A DNA stretch of 64,000 nt from Clostridia bacterium (GTDB lineage: Bacteria; Bacillota; Clostridia; Oscillospirales; CAG-272): the NCBI GenBank assembly GCA_017504405.1, contig JAFVRG010000004.1:1-64000 (forward strand). Reading direction: 5' to 3'. Below, piece by piece: positions 1,188-11,731 of the stretch. Numbering within the stretch: position 1 is the stretch's first letter; the number at the start of each line of letters is the position of its first letter. A program made the position numbers and the translations under genes. Under the pieces are notes generated by a model, which saw only the letters and a program-made list of their open reading frames with translations, was not told where the DNA came from and searched no databases.

Positions 1188-1994
1188 TTATATAAATTTA
1201 TGTTTTTTCATACGGTGATACTTTTTCCACTGTACGGGGGGAACACCCTCGATTTTTTTAAACTGTCTGGAGAAGTGGGTGTAATTTGAATACCCGAGAG
1301 AATATGCAATATCGGTCAGGTTCTCACCTGCCAGCATTTGCTTTTTCGCCGCCTCTATACGTATTGCTATGAGATCGTCAATCGGCGCCATTCCGAACAA
1401 GCCCTTATAAAGGTTAGCAAAATAAGACAGACTGAGATTTACCGACTTAGCCATAATAGATACCGACCATTTGTCACCGGGATTTTCAACCATCATATTA
1501 CGCAGCGCATACAGCTTGTTTTCCAGCTGCTCACTCGATATTCTGAGCGTCTGCTCGGTAGATGTCATGAATTTGAGAATTTGCTGAATGAGCTTGTCGG
1601 CATCTACCTTAAACTGGTCAGATCCGAATTTGTAGAGATACATGCGGTCGAGCTCGTTAATCACTCGAAACATTCGCTCGTGTTGAGTGGGATAATACGG
1701 ACGTCCGAACTCGATTCCCGTTTTGAGCATTTCTTCCTTAGAGCAGTCTATCATCATCCATGAATATGAAACAGGATGGTCGAGAATACTGTACAGAGAA
1801 AAATAAGTATTTTTGTCTATGAGAACGCATGCGTTGGGCTCGAGGTCGTAGGTGATTTGCTTATCTTCACATTGACACTTAAATCTCATTTTGTTGTGGA
1901 AATAGTGCAAAATATATATATCCTGCCTCGGTTGGTTGGTGGAAAAACCGATTCGGGCCATCACGTGCGACGCCATATTTTTGCAAATGAACAT
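1188..1994 (-). CDS. AraC-family transcriptional regulator (1)
   Basis: This is a 268-aa protein with an N-terminal cupin-like sensing half and a C-terminal double helix-turn-helix of the AraC/XylS type. The signature 'LTDIAYSLGYSNYTHFSRQFKK' region is followed by 'GVPPVQW'. The start is the ATG at 1994, because AAAGGAG lies 5-6 bases upstream; an in-frame codon 18 residues earlier has no ribosome site. The gene is divergent from a two-gene beta-helix operon. The intergenic region carries 11-bp boxes repeated every 21 bp, the usual footprint of an AraC monomer pair, so this protein is the obvious candidate to bind them. The effector is unknown; a sugar or oligosaccharide is likely from context. 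Confidence 0.9.
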   Translation of the reverse strand: MFICKNMASHVMARIGFSTNQPRQDIYILHYFHNKMRFKCQCEDKQITYDLEPNACVLIDKNTYFSLYSILDHPVSYSWMMIDCSKEEMLKTGIEFGRPYYPTQHERMFRVINELDRMYLYKFGSDQFKVDADKLIQQILKFMTSTEQTLRISSEQLENKLYALRNMMVENPGDKWSVSIMAKSVNLSLSYFANLYKGLFGMAPIDDLIAIRIEAAKKQMLAGENLTDIAYSLGYSNYTHFSRQFKKIEGVPPVQWKKYHRMKKHKFI

Positions 1995-2065
1995 GGTTTT
2001 CTCCTTTTGTCTATCGATTTGCATCGAAATTTTCGGATAACTAAACATATTTTATCATAAAAAAT

Positions 2066-2131: not shown

Positions 2132-2336
2132 GCAAGCATACACGCACACGCGTATGCGCACAGGAATTAGAAAGTACAAAGAATAAATTTCTTTTACTAC
2201 CTACAACGGGGTTGTTCCGCCGAGAGGCGTTGCAATATTTTTCATATTGGAGAGCCGAGAGGCTTTCCACTTTCTCCTTACACACACGGGGGCTTTACCG
2301 TGTGTGGGCGCCCGCCTTTGGCGGGCGTTTCTCTCT
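2132..2336 (+). ncRNA. Putative AraC-controlled structured small RNA (about 205 nt)
   Basis: No convincing open reading frame lies between promoter P1 and the terminator ending near 2336. The interval folds by eye into consecutive hairpins. They are 2136-2141/2152-2157, 2178-2183/2189-2194, 2204-2207/2211-2214, 2218-2221/2226-2229 (GAGA loop), 2233-2238/2244-2249, 2249-2256/2261-2268 (GAGA loop), 2281-2289/2298-2306, and a GC-rich 8-bp terminator stem 2309-2316/2320-2327 followed by TTTCTCTCT. Between the sixth and seventh hairpins is an apparently unpaired CTTTCTCCTT (2270-2279), complementary to Shine-Dalgarno sequences. I do not recognise it as a known RNA family. It may instead be a leader that reads through into the beta-helix operon. 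Confidence 0.5.
2309..2336 (+). terminator. Intrinsic terminator of the P1 transcript
   Basis: CGCCCGCC, TTT loop, GGCGGGCG, then TTTCTCTCT. This is a perfect 8-bp GC stem. The pyrimidine tail is not pure T, so some readthrough is possible. Confidence 0.6.
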
Positions 2337-2349
2337 GCCTGCAAAAAGT

Positions 2350-2402
2350 AGAATATGTCAACTATTTGCAAGAATATGTCATTGAAGGCAAAGAGTATGT
2401 AT
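2350..2402 (+). promoter_or_regulatory. AraC-type boxes, set 2 (three copies)
   Basis: AGAATATGTCA occurs at 2350-2360 and again, identical, at 2371-2381. A weaker third copy AGAGTATGTAT follows at 2392-2402. All three are spaced 21 bp. The second copy abuts the -35 of promoter P2 exactly as in set 1; the third falls in the promoter spacer. Confidence 0.65.
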
Positions 2403-2410
2403 GTTAAAAT
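2382..2410 (+). promoter_or_regulatory. Promoter P2 for the beta-helix operon
   Basis: TTGAAG (2382-2387), 17-bp spacer, TAAAAT (2405-2410). The predicted leader of about 30 bases contains the GGAGGAG ribosome site used by the first gene. Confidence 0.55.
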
Positions 2411-2449: not shown

Positions 2450-5038
2450 ATGGAAAAGCAGCTTTTTGGATATGAAGTATCTGAATATTCGATTGAATGC
2501 GCTCACAGTGAGAGCTTTGCTGAGGAAAATGCGGCGAAGGCTTTTTTGCTGAGGAGTGCAATTTTTTTTAACGCAAAACCGAGTGATGAAAAAAAGGAGA
2601 AAAAGATAATTTTCTCCGAAAATCCGCTTGATATTAAGCGTGGCGATGCACGTTTTTATACCGAGGACTCAAATCTCGTTTTTGAGGGATTCGGCTACGA
2701 CTCTATGAAAATTGCAGTCATGCTGTTCTTTGACATTTACGGAAAAGAGGGGAAATTCCCCGAGCCCTTTTTCGTAGATGAATACTGCGAGAAAAACGGT
2801 ATTGATAAATTTGAATACGTGTCGGAAAAGCCCCTTGTTTTCACCGATGCACATCTTTCACGGGTTGAGCGCCCGTCAGACGGCGTTGCGCTGGTTTATT
2901 GGCATAACCACACCTCGCTCCCCGATGAAACCGTCAATATGCTCGGCACGAATTTTGAAAACGGTATGCAAATTCTCATTTCACGCCTCGCCGATGAAAC
3001 GGACGGAGCGGATGAGAGAGCGGTTGAGCCGCTTATGGTGTCCGATAATAACGTGATGTTCACAATTCCTGCGGATATGAAAATGGGAATTTTCTCCGTG
3101 AGGATAAAAAACAGCTACGGCGAGAGTGACGAGATTCTCGTAAATGCGCCCAATGCGTGGTGGTTTATTGCGGATGACGGCGAGGAGATTACCGAGGACG
3201 GATACGTTCAGATAATGGGAAATGCGCTGTCCTTTGACGGCAGAGCCTCGGTTAAGCTCGTGTCCCACTCTGACGGCAAGGAGTATTCTGCCGACGTCTT
3301 TTTCGCTGACGAATACTGTGTGAAGGCGAGAGTAAATGCGCTTCCCCTTGGAAAATACGATATATACGTAAACAACGGTTATGGCAACGAAAGAGGCTGG
3401 GTTCGCCACGACTGGATTGAGTGCGTTCCCACTTACAAACGTGGAGAGGCGAGCATCACTCTCGCTCCTGCTGACGGTGATATGTTTGACGCAATAGACG
3501 GCGCACTTTCCGAGCTTGAAAGGTGTGGAGGCGGAACCCTCACTCTTACGGAGGGCGAATATACGGTAAACGGCCCTGTTCGCATAGGTAAGGGGGTTGC
3601 TCTCGTAGGCGAGGGTGACGTGCGTGTGAGCATGTACGGCTCGGTGAATTTCTTTTCCAGAAGCGAGGTGAAGAATATCTATTTTGATTTTCTTCACACC
3701 AAGGAGGGAAATCTCGCTTATGTCCACGGTGACGGTGTCAGAATATACAATTCCACCTTTGTCATTTCAGAGAAGATAAAAACCGCAAGAGAAATGATAG
3801 GCGTTGCCTTCTGGGCGCAGAGTGTCAAAAACCTCGTTATGGAGGGCAGTGAAGTATATGCTGACCATATGGGCGTTGATTTGTCCCGCTGTACCTTTTC
3901 CGCAATCCGCTCCTGTCATATAAAGGCGGGTGCCGGCGGTATATATTTCCGTGCGTGTAACAGAGTTACGGCAGAGGATAATTTGATGACCACGATAGGT
4001 CTGGTTTCAGGCTCGTCTATATGGCCTGACAACTCCTACGTCGGAAATTTCTTTAACTATGTAGCACGAAACAGAATCATACACTGTCTGTGGGGTGACC
4101 GAGAGGGCATAACCTACGATGACCACGGCACGTATTTCTTCGGCAAGGCAACGGCACGTGGCTGTGAGCTGGTGACCGAGTACTCGCCGCAGGTGGTCGA
4201 AACTATCCCTAACGGTGTAACAACGCACAGAACCCCGTACAAAAAGTATAATTTCCTCGCCGCCCTCACCGCTCATAAGCGTGACGACAGAGAGTGGCAC
4301 GGACTCAACGCAGTTATCATATCGGGCAAGGGTATGGGTCAGTTCAGAAATATCGAGGCGTTAGAGGGCGATCTCGTTATAATCGACAGACCGTGGGACG
4401 TTATTCCCGATGATAGCTCGGTGTTCATTATGGGTGTGTTTAACGGACGGCATATCCTTGATAAAAACTATATCGAAACAGCGTCCTGCCTTCAGACATA
4501 TCCACCCAACTATGAGTCAATAGTTGCGAACAATACGTTGTACCGAGCAGGAGCTGTGGTGGTAAACTCGTCACTAAATCAAATAGACGAAAAGCCCTAC
4601 AACGATCATTCCGGAAATTGGCGTAAGGGAGCGCCGATGTTCTCGGCAGAGCCTAATATACTCACCACCGTTGTTGGAAACGTTGGAATTACAGGAAATC
4701 ACAGCCTTGATTTCGAGGGCAGACCCAGTATGGGACCGCACGCAACGGTAGAAACCGATATGTATGAGGTTCACGCCACTATGGGAACAACCACAAAGAG
4801 AAATGAGCTTGGCGCATTCTATATACTCACGAACAAGGGTGCGACGGATATGTCTATCCTTGAGAAAAACAAAATACACGATAATTTCTCGGGCATAAGG
4901 ATAGACAGCGACACTAATACGCTGTATCATCCGACGAGATTTATTGTCCGTGAGAACAAGCAGTACAATACAAGGTGTAAGCTCTGGACAAACTCTGAGC
5001 TTGTAGAGAGAAAGGGGGCGCAGGACTATGAGGCGTGA
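2450..5038 (+). CDS. Large cytoplasmic right-handed beta-helix protein (pectate-lyase-like)
   Basis: This is an 862-aa protein without a signal peptide or membrane segment. Residues about 1-330 are a beta-rich N-terminal part that I do not recognise. From about 340 onward there is a pectate-lyase-3-type start ('MFDAIDGALSELERCGGGTLTL', a calculated floor for helix rungs) followed by many short rungs with alternating hydrophobic residues and asparagines ('VEDNLMTTIGL', 'NRVTAEDNLM'-like). GGAGGAG precedes the ATG by 7 bases. The next gene overlaps by 11 bases and encodes a smaller beta-helix, so they form an operon. Such folds are polysaccharide lyases, glycosidases or epimerases; no catalytic set could be assigned. 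Confidence 0.7.
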   Translation: MEKQLFGYEVSEYSIECAHSESFAEENAAKAFLLRSAIFFNAKPSDEKKEKKIIFSENPLDIKRGDARFYTEDSNLVFEGFGYDSMKIAVMLFFDIYGKEGKFPEPFFVDEYCEKNGIDKFEYVSEKPLVFTDAHLSRVERPSDGVALVYWHNHTSLPDETVNMLGTNFENGMQILISRLADETDGADERAVEPLMVSDNNVMFTIPADMKMGIFSVRIKNSYGESDEILVNAPNAWWFIADDGEEITEDGYVQIMGNALSFDGRASVKLVSHSDGKEYSADVFFADEYCVKARVNALPLGKYDIYVNNGYGNERGWVRHDWIECVPTYKRGEASITLAPADGDMFDAIDGALSELERCGGGTLTLTEGEYTVNGPVRIGKGVALVGEGDVRVSMYGSVNFFSRSEVKNIYFDFLHTKEGNLAYVHGDGVRIYNSTFVISEKIKTAREMIGVAFWAQSVKNLVMEGSEVYADHMGVDLSRCTFSAIRSCHIKAGAGGIYFRACNRVTAEDNLMTTIGLVSGSSIWPDNSYVGNFFNYVARNRIIHCLWGDREGITYDDHGTYFFGKATARGCELVTEYSPQVVETIPNGVTTHRTPYKKYNFLAALTAHKRDDREWHGLNAVIISGKGMGQFRNIEALEGDLVIIDRPWDVIPDDSSVFIMGVFNGRHILDKNYIETASCLQTYPPNYESIVANNTLYRAGAVVVNSSLNQIDEKPYNDHSGNWRKGAPMFSAEPNILTTVVGNVGITGNHSLDFEGRPSMGPHATVETDMYEVHATMGTTTKRNELGAFYILTNKGATDMSILEKNKIHDNFSGIRIDSDTNTLYHPTRFIVRENKQYNTRCKLWTNSELVERKGAQDYEA

Positions 5039-7023: not shown

Positions 7024-8346
7024 ATGGAGTTTTTCAAGGAATTTGGCAAAATAAGATACGAGGGCAGAAATGCAAAAACACCGTTTGCCTTCCGTTTCTA
7101 CAATCCCGATGAAAAAATAGCGGGAAAAACCATGAGGGAGCAGCTCCGCTTCGCTATGGCGTACTGGCACACTATGTGCGCCGAGGGAACTGATATGTTC
7201 GGCGTGGGAACCATTGATAAAAGCTTTGACTCAGCTAATCCTATGGAGATAGCGAAGAACAAGGCGTATGCGGCCTTTGAGCTTATGGAGAAGCTGGATA
7301 TAGATTATTTCTGCTTCCACGACAGAGATATTGCGCCCGAGGGCAGGACACTTGCAGAGAGCAATGAGCGCCTTGATGAGATTACCGAGCTTATAGGCGC
7401 TCTTATGAGAAAGAGCGGTAAAAAGCTCCTCTGGGGCACAGCAAACTGCTTTGGAAACAAGAGATATATGCACGGCGCAGGAACCGCACCCAACGCAGAC
7501 GTGTTTGCCTTTGCGGCGGCGCAGATAAAGAAGACTATCGAGATTACTGTGAAGCTCGGCGGTGAGGGATACGTTTTCTGGGGTGGCAGAGAGGGATATG
7601 AAACCCTTTTGAATACCGATATGGCTCTGGAGCAGGACAATATGGCACGCCTTATGAGAATGGCGGTTGATTATGCTCGCTCGATAGGCTTCAAGGGAGA
7701 TTTCTATATAGAGCCGAAGCCGAAGGAGCCCACAAAGCACCAGTATGATTTCGACACTGCAACCGTGCTCGCATTTTTGCGTAAATACGGGTTGCAAAAC
7801 GATTTCAAGATGAATATAGAGGCAAACCACGCAACGCTTGCAGGTCATACCTTCCAGCACGAGCTACGTGTAGCACGTGAAAACGGCGTTTTCGGCTCAA
7901 TTGATGCCAACCAGGGTGATATGCTCCTCGGTTGGGATACCGACCAATACCCCACTAACGTATACGAAACGGCGCTCTGCATGTATGAGGTATTGAAGGC
8001 GGGCGGATTTACTCACGGCGGACTTAACTTCGATGCAAAAACACGCCGAGGCTCAAACACTCCCGAGGATATAGCGCTTTCCTTTATTGCAGGAATGGAT
8101 GCTTTCGCACTTGGACTGCGTATAGCTGACAAAATGATAAGCGACGGACGCATTGACGATTTCGTGCAGGAAAGATATTCGAGCTATAACAGCGGAATCG
8201 GAAAGAGAATCGTTGACGGAGATATAAGCATACATGAGCTCGAAAAATACGCCCTGTTTTTGGGCGACGTCACCACTAATAAGAGCGGCAGACAGGAGTA
8301 CCTTGAAAATATAATCAACGAAATTATGTTCGGTGGCAAATTATGA
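7024..8346 (+). CDS. xylA: Xylose isomerase
   Basis: D-xylose to D-xylulose isomerase (EC 5.3.1.5), 440 aa, the length of the class II long form found in clostridia. The catalytic histidine is in 'YFCFHDRDI' (about H99). Metal ligands are in '[16 protein letters not shown]', '[13 protein letters not shown]' and 'GSIDANQGD'. The signature '[16 protein letters not shown]' is intact. AAGAGG precedes the ATG. The stop codon overlaps the start of xylB (ATGA), so the two are translationally coupled. It stands divergent from AraC regulator 2. A plausible -10 (TATAAA near 6977) has no good -35, consistent with activator dependence. Confidence 0.97.
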
Positions 8347-9833
8347 AAAAATACCTTGTAGGAATTGATATTGGTACTACGGGTACAAAGAGTGTTTTGT
8401 TCGATACAGAGGGCAACACGGTTGCATCCTCGACAGCAGAATACCCGATGTCGCAGCCTAAAAACGGCTGGGCAGAGCAGTCACCTGCCGATTGGTGGGA
8501 TGCCGTTTGCAAAACCTTGAGGGAAATCACTCCGAGCGCAGCTGACGGCGAAATATGCGGCATAGGCCTCTCGGGACAGATGCACAGCCTCGTTATGCTT
8601 GATAAAGAAAATGAGGTGATACGCCCCGCAATCCTCTGGTGTGACCAGCGCACAGGCGAGGAATGTGCTGAAATAGAGGCCAAAATAGGCAGAAAAAGGC
8701 TGATTGAAATAACGGCCAATCCTGCCCTGACAGGCTTCACAGCGTCAAAAATTATGTGGGTCAAGAAGCACGAGCCGGAAAGCTTTGAGAAATGCGCCCA
8801 CATTCTCCTCGCAAAGGATTATATCAGATTTAAGCTGACAGGCGAGTATGCAACCGACGTGTCGGACGCCTCGGGTATGCAGCTGCTTGACGTTGCGAAA
8901 CGAAGCTGGAGCCTTGAGATATGCGAGGCTCTCGGAATAGATATGAGTATGCTTGCAACGGTGTATGAGAGCCCCGAGCTTACGGGCAGAATTACGGAAG
9001 AGGCGTCAGAGCTTACGGGACTTCCTGTCGGTGCCTGTGTTGCAGGAGGCGGCGGAGATAACGCCTCGGCTGCGATAGGCACGGGAGTCTGTAAGGAGGG
9101 CAAGGCGTTTACCACAATCGGCACGAGCGGAGTTGTATTTGCTCCGACCAACACCCCGGTAATAGATTCCGAGGGTAGAATACATACCTTCTGCGCCGCA
9201 GTCCCGGGCACGTGGCACGTTATGGGAGTAACGCAGGCGGCAGGACTTTCCCTCAATTGGTTCAGGCGGACCGTTACACCTGATGCAAATTACCGCCAGA
9301 TAGATGACTGGTGCGAGAAAATTCCTATCGGTGCCGAGGGGCTTATATACCTTCCCTATCTTATGGGAGAGCGCACACCGATTCTTGACCCGAATGCCAG
9401 AGGCGTTATTTTCGGACTCTCGGCTCTGCATACGAGGGAGCATATGGCACGTGCGGTGATAGAGGGAGTTTCCTATTCCCTGTACAGTGCTCTTGAGCTT
9501 ATTGACAGGGTAGGAGTACCCGTTAACGATATGTCGCTTTGCGGCGGCGGAGCCAAGAGCGGGCTCTGGCGGCAGATGCTTAGCGACGTGTACGCAACAG
9601 ATATTAAAATTCCCGAATCGGGCGAAGGAGCAGCGCTCGGCGCCGCAATACTCGGCGGCTGTGCAGCGGGAATATACAGCTCTGTTGAAGAGGGTTGTGA
9701 GAGGGCGGTGCGGACGAAAACCACCGTGCTCTCAAACAACGCAAACCATGAAAAATATATGAAACATTATGCCGTCTATTCCTCACTTTACCCCGCACTT
9801 TCCGAGAGCTTTTTGAAGCTTTCTAAAATATAA
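8343..9833 (+). CDS. xylB: Xylulokinase
   Basis: ATP-dependent phosphorylation of D-xylulose to xylulose 5-phosphate (EC 2.7.1.17), 496 aa, normal length. FGGY kinase features are present: the phosphate-1 motif '[18 protein letters not shown]' at the N-terminus, the catalytic aspartate region '[11 protein letters not shown]' near residue 100, and the adenosine-binding '[15 protein letters not shown]'. The start overlaps the xylA stop by 4 bases. The product enters the pentose phosphate or phosphoketolase route. Confidence 0.96.
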
Positions 9834-9844
9834 GGAGGAGCATT

Positions 9845-11731
9845 ATGACCTTTTTGAAAAGAGCGAAAGAACTTGTCTCAAGGATGACTCTTGAGGAAAA
9901 GATTTCACAGCTTCGCTATAACGCCCCCGCCATTGAGCGACTCGGCGTTCCTGCCTACAATTGGTGGAACGAGTGTCTGCACGGTGTGGCACGCCAGGGA
10001 GCGGCGACGGTTTTTCCGCAGGCGATAGCTATGGCGGCGAGCTTTAACACCCGACTTATGGAGAGAGTTGCGGTGGCAATCTCCGACGAGGGCAGAGCAA
10101 AATACAACGAGTATAAGAAATTCGGATATACCGATATATATCAGGGTATCACCTTCTGGTCGCCGAATATAAACATATTCAGAGACCCTCGTTGGGGCAG
10201 AGGACACGAAACCTACGGAGAGGACCCGTATCTTACGGGCAGAATGGGTGTTGCATTCATAAAGGGCTTGCAGGGTAACGGCAAATACCGAAAGACAGAT
10301 GCAACGATAAAGCATTTTGCTGTCCATAGCGGACCCGAGAGCCTGCGCCATAGCTTTGATGCTAAGGTGAGCGAAAAGGATATGAGAGAGACATATCTGT
10401 GGGCATTTAAATACTGCATAGACAACGCCGACCCCTCTGCTGTAATGGGTGCATACAACAGGGTAAACGGAGAGCCCTGCTGCGCATCCGATACTCTCTT
10501 GCGTGATATTTTATACGGCGAGTGGGGATTTAAGGGATACGTCGTATCCGATTGCGGAGCAATATGCGATTTTCACGAGCACCACAAAATCACGGGCAGC
10601 GAAAAGGAGAGTGCCGCATTGGCGGTAAACTCAGGCTGTCAGCTCAATTGCGGTAGGGCGTATAATTGGCTCTGCGATGCGTACAGTGCCGGACTCGTCA
10701 GCGAGGAAACGATAACCGCTGCGGCAGAGAAGCTGTTTGAGGCACGCTTCCGCCTCGGTATGTTTGATAACGACTGCGAGTATGACGCTATTCCCTACGA
10801 GGTGGTTGAATGCGATGAGCACAGAGCGCTTAACAGGCAAATGGCGCAGGAGAGCATGGTCCTTCTCAAAAATAACGGAGTGCTTCCGATTAGAAACGCA
10901 AAAACCGTAGCCGTCATAGGCCCGAATGCAGACGATGTGAGTGTTCTGCTCGCAAATTACAACGGAATCCCCTCGAAATATACAACGCTATTGCGTGGTA
11001 TTCAACAGGAGTTTGACGGACGTGTCATTTGTGCACGGGGCTGCCATATCTTTAAGGATGAGGAGAGCCCCTGGGATGAACACCCCTTGAACGAGGCGAT
11101 TATAGCCGCAAAAAAGGCAGATGCCGTCATTATATGCACAGGACTCAATCCCTCAATGGAGGGCGAGGAGGGTGATGCGTATAACGGTATGTACAGCGGA
11201 GATAAGGGGGATATTGAGCTTCCGAAATCTCAGCTTAACTTAATTGAAAAGGTTGTCGCTGTCGGAAAGCCGACTGTGCTTGTCAACGTGAGCGGCAGCT
11301 GTGTAAATCTCGAGTACGCAGACGCTAATTGCGATGCGGTAATTCAGTGCTTTTATCCCGGCGCTGAGGGCGGCTTGGCGCTTGCCGACATACTTTTCGG
11401 AAAGGTCTCGCCCAGCGGCAGACTCCCCGTCAGCTTTTACCGTTCAACCGACGATTTGCCCGACTTTGAGGATTACAGTATGGATAACCGTACCTACAAA
11501 TTCTTCAAGGGCAAGTGCGTTTACGATTTCGGTCACGGACTGACCTACTCGGATATTGAGGAAAAGTGGCTTGATGAAAAAACCGTCGAGCTTCACAACA
11601 AAGGCGAGTATGATACCGCCTACTCAGTCCTACGCTACGAGTATGTTCCTCACAAGAGCCTTTGCGGCTTCAAAAAGGTATATATCCAAGCCCACGAGAG
11701 CATCACCGTCAGCTTTAATGCCTACACCTAA
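9845..11731 (+). CDS. Cytoplasmic GH3 beta-xylosidase/beta-glucosidase
   Basis: The protein has 628 aa and no signal peptide. GH3 N-domain motifs are 'YNWWNECLHGVAR', 'GRGHETYGEDPYL' and 'IKHFAVHSGPE'. The nucleophile aspartate is in 'GYVVSDCGAI' (about D236). The C-domain has 'VIGPNADD' and 'GRLPVSFY'. The 'NWWNE.LHG' variant is common in xylosidases, and location 11 bases after xylB supports release of xylose from imported xylo-oligosaccharides. After 'FGHGLTYS' only about 60 residues remain, so the fibronectin-III-like C-terminal domain is much shorter than in most family members. AGGAG precedes the ATG. Confidence 0.9.
   Translation: MTFLKRAKELVSRMTLEEKISQLRYNAPAIERLGVPAYNWWNECLHGVARQGAATVFPQAIAMAASFNTRLMERVAVAISDEGRAKYNEYKKFGYTDIYQGITFWSPNINIFRDPRWGRGHETYGEDPYLTGRMGVAFIKGLQGNGKYRKTDATIKHFAVHSGPESLRHSFDAKVSEKDMRETYLWAFKYCIDNADPSAVMGAYNRVNGEPCCASDTLLRDILYGEWGFKGYVVSDCGAICDFHEHHKITGSEKESAALAVNSGCQLNCGRAYNWLCDAYSAGLVSEETITAAAEKLFEARFRLGMFDNDCEYDAIPYEVVECDEHRALNRQMAQESMVLLKNNGVLPIRNAKTVAVIGPNADDVSVLLANYNGIPSKYTTLLRGIQQEFDGRVICARGCHIFKDEESPWDEHPLNEAIIAAKKADAVIICTGLNPSMEGEEGDAYNGMYSGDKGDIELPKSQLNLIEKVVAVGKPTVLVNVSGSCVNLEYADANCDAVIQCFYPGAEGGLALADILFGKVSPSGRLPVSFYRSTDDLPDFEDYSMDNRTYKFFKGKCVYDFGHGLTYSDIEEKWLDEKTVELHNKGEYDTAYSVLRYEYVPHKSLCGFKKVYIQAHESITVSFNAYT

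Follow-up and report, generated by a model that had tools for sequence, protein, structure and literature searches.

The 64,000-nucleotide window analyzed here, the whole stretch of DNA from one contig of a Clostridia bacterium, contains between an AraC-family regulator gene and a probable beta-helix gene a structured RNA that almost certainly belongs to a real RNA family. Three copies share four hairpins and two invariant unpaired linkers, and the best reading is that the family is restricted to this one genome within the range of genomes searched. As an explanation of the whole, the best is a small RNA (sRNA) gene that would be switched on by AraC and would pair with mRNA starts, a proposal that we regard as evenly poised. 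The features of the locus and the two further copies are listed in Table 1.

Table 1. Features of the RNA locus in the window, and cores of the two additional copies
Feature	Position	Strand	Description
AraC-family regulator gene, divergent	1188..2048	-	Likely start ATG 1993 after AAAGGAG
araC promoter	2077-2049	-	TTGACA-17-TAAAAT; overlaps P1 boxes
Promoter P1	2065..2125	+	AraC-box pair 2065-2100; -10 TATAAT 2120-2125; expected start ~2132
5' extension	2132..2209	+	Window copy only; from fold and unpaired probabilities
Conserved RNA core	2210..2333	+	Shared with C14 and C5 copies; from covariance-model matches, pair counts and signature scan
Hairpin 1	2211..2236	+	GUUGU/GCAAU, 2x2 internal loop, CGCC-GAGA-GGCG
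Linker 1	2238..2245	+	UUUUUCAU; unpaired, invariant in 3 copies
Hairpin 2	2248..2269	+	UGGAGAGCC-GAGA-GGCUUUCCA; each copy with its own stem sequence
Linker 2	2271..2279	+	UUUCUCCUU; invariant in 3 copies
Hairpin 3	2281..2306	+	CACACACGG/CCGUGUGUG
Hairpin 4	2309..2336	+	Intrinsic terminator, T-rich tail
Promoter P2, beta-helix operon	2349..2410	+	AraC-box pair; -10 TAAAAT 2405-2410
862-aa gene, probably beta-helix protein	2450..5038	+	No Pfam match
C14 copy core	G000:C14:748-886	-	From covariance model
C5 copy core	G000:C5:33311-33466	-	From motif scan and covariance model

Fold and conserved core

The analysis confirms the array of hairpins at 2132-2336. The MFE is -85.4 kcal/mol (z -7.75), none of 200 dinucleotide shuffles is equally stable, and the reverse strand folds more weakly (z -5.2); the thermodynamic check proposed in an earlier note on this DNA thus finds a very stable structure. 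The hairpins that the note described, with two C-GAGA-G loops and a GC-rich terminator at 2309-2336, are all present. The GAGA tetraloops are no hallmark of the RNA, however, as they are not kept in the copies on contigs C14 and C5. The note had also treated the whole of 2132-2336 as one RNA; the structured array stands, but the conserved part is the four-hairpin 3' section at 2210-2333 and the rest is copy-specific. The 5' extension consists of a hairpin (2132-2159) and an arm (2162-2175) able to mask linker 2, and no counterpart of it is seen in the C14 or C5 copy. Masking by the arm is predicted to be partial: the mean unpaired probability of linker 2 is 0.34 in the full window RNA versus 0.99 in the core.

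Promoter-like and terminator sequences flank the RNA. Open reading frames of at least 20 aa run through 2132-2336, but no convincing ribosome site precedes any of them, and a small-protein reading was dropped on this ground.

Three copies in one genome

A covariance model made from the window sequence alone (R1) was searched against 69 genomes and gave a sole non-self match, in the same genome, at G000:C14:748-974 on the minus strand (E 3.4e-8); this region also holds a paralogue of the window 862-aa gene. The third copy, on contig C5, was detected by a motif scan and scores 15.9 bits with R1. A signature of the family, GGTTG-N15-32-CAATA-N0-4-TTTTTCAT-N18-32-TTTCTCCTT, has exactly three occurrences in 1.78 Mb but none in ten second-order Markov genomes. 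Folded alone, each copy adopts the same plan: hairpin 1 with its 2x2 internal loop, linker 1, hairpin 2, linker 2, hairpin 3 and the terminator hairpin 4, with one extra hairpin between linker 2 and hairpin 3 in the C5 copy only. Hairpin 1 has CGGG/CCCG in both the C14 and C5 copies. A genome search with a second model (R2) yielded no additional convincing copy, and none was found beside the paralogue of the 862-aa gene on C2 or a third GH42-like gene.

Several comparisons of the copies bear on conservation of the RNA. First, in an alignment with hand-set blocks and N padding that omits the extra C5 hairpin (A7), 35 of 35 pairs are standard in all three copies, a percentage that leans towards the structure, which guided the placing of the blocks; pairing falls to 38-50% when the partners are slid by 1-3 columns. 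Second, 21 pairs of this alignment have changes on both sides, versus 7.4 expected from shuffles. Third, both linkers are identical in all three copies, an identity independent of the blocking. Fourth, the GH42-like genes next to the C14 and C5 copies have diverged to 54% protein identity and 39% identity at third codon positions, whereas the RNAs beside them retain long identical stretches, a sign that purifying selection acts on the non-coding sequence. Conservation and compensatory changes, which the earlier note had asked of homologous regions, are thus present among three copies of the same genome but not in relatives, where the genome searches gave none.

DNA searches with the region returned short chance matches only, and no homologue was found in 59 relatives, 69 congeners, 394 order-level genomes, plasmids or phages. 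R2 found no convincing copy in congeners or in the order, where the search scored 8 candidates per genome and was less sensitive; its matches in other congeners (best E 0.003) were rejected, with linkers or stems missing. Among 23 loci with the linker 1 pattern in a scan of viral contigs, none has the structure. At the gathering threshold of Rfam 15, neither the window nor the sites of the C14 and C5 copies has a match, with sub-threshold matches only; 2060-2450 likewise gives weak, unrelated matches. The view that the RNA belongs to no known family therefore holds at this threshold. Searches of relatives with the AraC, 862-aa and GH42-like proteins gave no close match, nor did peptide patterns of the 862-aa protein in a collection of genome contigs (genome_contigs), and synteny in other species is therefore unusable.

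Promoters and genomic context

P1 and P2 are diverged duplicates of one AraC-box pair. The earlier note had proposed that P1 has the layout of the neighboring operon promoter, and the same box pair is indeed present in both, with the -10 element 53 bases after the box in P1 and 54 in P2. Exact occurrences of the box sequence TAGAATATGTCAA number only five in the genome pieces scanned, two of them within the window. The third lies in a further promoter, P0 (L113:13096-13170), close to the end of contig C17, where the distance is again 53 bases. Downstream of P0 is a gene for a solute-binding lipoprotein, and the window begins with the 3' part of this gene (1-1078): C17 and C3 have a unique 67-base end overlap in common, across which the solute-binding reading frame continues in frame. 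The remaining two exact sites (L091:11728 and L112:12696) precede genes for very large proteins that look secreted and have almost the same signal peptide.

Because P1 has the same boxes and spacing as P0 and P2, it most likely drives a short RNA ending at 2309-2336, in line with the earlier note. From this promoter anatomy, the window copy is quite likely a separately transcribed RNA and is probably under AraC control; it may, as the note suggested, be induced by a sugar. The overlap of the araC promoter with the P1 boxes further suggests autoregulation.

The other two copies occupy different positions. The C14 copy starts ~98 bases past a GH42-like gene (PF02449) and the C5 copy ~20 bases past another. 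The window copy stands by itself between araC and the beta-helix operon. A promoter-like TGAACA-17-TATAAT ends at L068:894, 8 bases ahead of the first core base (886) of the C14 copy; it would start transcription at that base, and the C14 copy may therefore be transcribed alone. A clear promoter was not found for the C5 copy, which may be processed from mRNA.

Placement directly behind GH42-like stop codons, together with terminator-like scores for hairpins 2 and 4, would suit a 3'-end element behind glycosidase genes, acting either as a reinforced tandem terminator or in mRNA stability, with the window copy as a remnant end insulating the araC side from the operon. We consider this unlikely, since the linker sequences are kept exactly, beyond U-richness, and in fixed order, an AraC-box promoter of its own, and no same-strand gene, lies upstream of the window copy, and in C14 a promoter-like site stands at the first core base. 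It is less probable still that the RNA is a 5' leader of the beta-helix operon, a riboswitch or attenuator from which P1 transcripts would read through if the terminator were prevented from forming. The RNA does lie upstream of the operon with a promoter before it and a terminator after it, but P2, with the same boxes, stands after that terminator, the copies on C14 and C5 sit at gene 3' ends rather than in leaders of genes they could control, and there is no Rfam riboswitch match.

Linkers and proposed action on translation starts

The sRNA reading draws on the linkers. Linker 1 is complementary to AUGAAAAA and ends in CAU, an anti-AUG, while linker 2 is an anti-Shine-Dalgarno (anti-SD) sequence complementary to AAGGAGAAA. 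Computed unpaired probabilities leave both unpaired in all three cores, and their 5' to 3' order, anti-AUG then anti-SD, is the order needed for covering a translation start. Base pairing with translation starts may be the main function of the RNA; on these sequence features the chances seem about equal either way. Several copies, regular hairpin spacing and conserved unpaired pyrimidine-rich linkers could also fit an RNA that binds protein, for instance a sponge titrating an RNA-binding regulator, but this is improbable, as the two linkers are unlike each other and jointly antisense to a translation start, and no loop conserves a GGA-type motif.

Under the start-pairing proposal, the AraC regulator would switch on the window sRNA together with the solute-binding gene (from P0) and the beta-helix operon (from P2), and the sRNA would stop at its own terminator. 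The linkers, on either side of hairpin 2, would then pair antisense to 5'-AAGGAGAAA-spacer-AUGAAAAA-3', and hairpin 2 would loop out. During an active carbohydrate programme, the RNA would thereby block or adjust the translation of mRNAs for sugar uptake and for glycosidases. The 5' extension of the window copy would mask linker 2 and may tune this activity.

Start regions were counted over 1124 genes, taken from simple script-made gene calls. The sequence AAGGAGAAA is found in 18 and the start ATGAAAAA in 80, and the two occur together in 9 genes versus 1.3 expected (P 9e-7). By inspection rather than domain search, these nine look mostly to be of secreted or carbohydrate type: five resemble lipoproteins (several of them solute-binding), and the others a secreted protein, a GH2-like glycosidase, the paralogue of the 862-aa gene on C2, and Era. 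The corresponding figure in a control congener without the RNA, a partial genome of 669 kb and 53% GC, is 2/14 (P 0.06). This association is suggestive of start-covering by the RNA; it may also reflect selection for strong A-rich starts. Ranking by duplex energy singled out no targets, and since linker 2 fits Shine-Dalgarno sequences generally, any target specificity is putative. In the genome that carries the RNA, the gene at L057:6519 has the start region AAGGAGAAAGGTATGAAAAA, and six genes, several apparently unrelated, have an identical 20-base start region, AAGGAGAAAAATATGAAAAA (L038:9679(+), L056:13441(+), L057:8319(+), L058:16255(+), L107:6821(-) and L117:7373(-)).

Comparison with known sRNAs

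The best reading by analogy is that the family represents multicopy sRNAs that would cover translation starts, similar to the streptococcal csRNAs but with their own control boxes, hairpin plan and motifs. The csRNAs are CiaR-controlled, with several related short RNAs per genome that end in a terminator and carry anti-SD and anti-start-codon (CAU) sequences in unpaired regions (PMC3091779). The RNAs described here resemble them in occurring as several related short RNAs with a terminator at the end and with anti-SD and anti-AUG sequences unpaired in all three cores. Unlike csRNAs, they have four hairpins, one of which splits the anti-AUG from the anti-SD, and the control boxes at P1 are those of an AraC-type locus, shared with P0 and P2. 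Listeria LhrC1-5 is likewise a multicopy sRNA, with pyrimidine-rich unpaired sites able to cover Shine-Dalgarno sequences; its copies are near-identical, LisRK-controlled and possess three redundant CUCCC-type motifs (PMC4132741). The likeness lies in the multiple copies and in a pyrimidine-rich unpaired site matching Shine-Dalgarno sequences, but the present copies share only linkers and fold, and UUUCUCCUU occurs once, as a linker, and is absent from the hairpin loops.

The order of genes in the window also recalls the enteric SgrR-SgrS-setA locus, where a divergent sugar-related regulator, an sRNA of ~200 nt and a sugar gene lie side by side. SgrS needs Hfq and additionally codes for a small protein. 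Here there is no open reading frame with a convincing ribosome site and the regulator is of another family; the likeness is one of arrangement, and no sequence relation is claimed.

A broader interpretation, which we put forward tentatively and with some doubt, is that this is a new, fast-evolving sRNA family travelling with beta-helix and GH42-like loci, which would recognize starts through an anti-SD/anti-AUG bridge split by a hairpin. Each carbohydrate locus would restrain the uptake and glycosidase mRNAs of the others, and one copy would carry an arm that masks its anti-SD site. If so, polysaccharide loci under AraC control in a little-known bacterium would have an additional sRNA layer, several loci each having their own copy of a start-covering RNA. 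The case also shows that an RNA for which relatives show no detectable similarity in DNA can be supported inside one genome, where a single-sequence covariance model leads to its paralogues.

Neighboring loci

The 862-aa protein has two paralogues in the genome (L014 and L015); none of the three matches a Pfam family or was found among the relatives searched. Xylose isomerase, xylulokinase and a xylosidase-like gene follow in a row at window positions 7024-11731, flanked by AraC-type genes, and form a xylan-use locus adjoining the RNA. A TPP riboswitch (RF00059, 69.3 bits) is present at L041:4385-4481(-), ~9 kb from the C5 copy.
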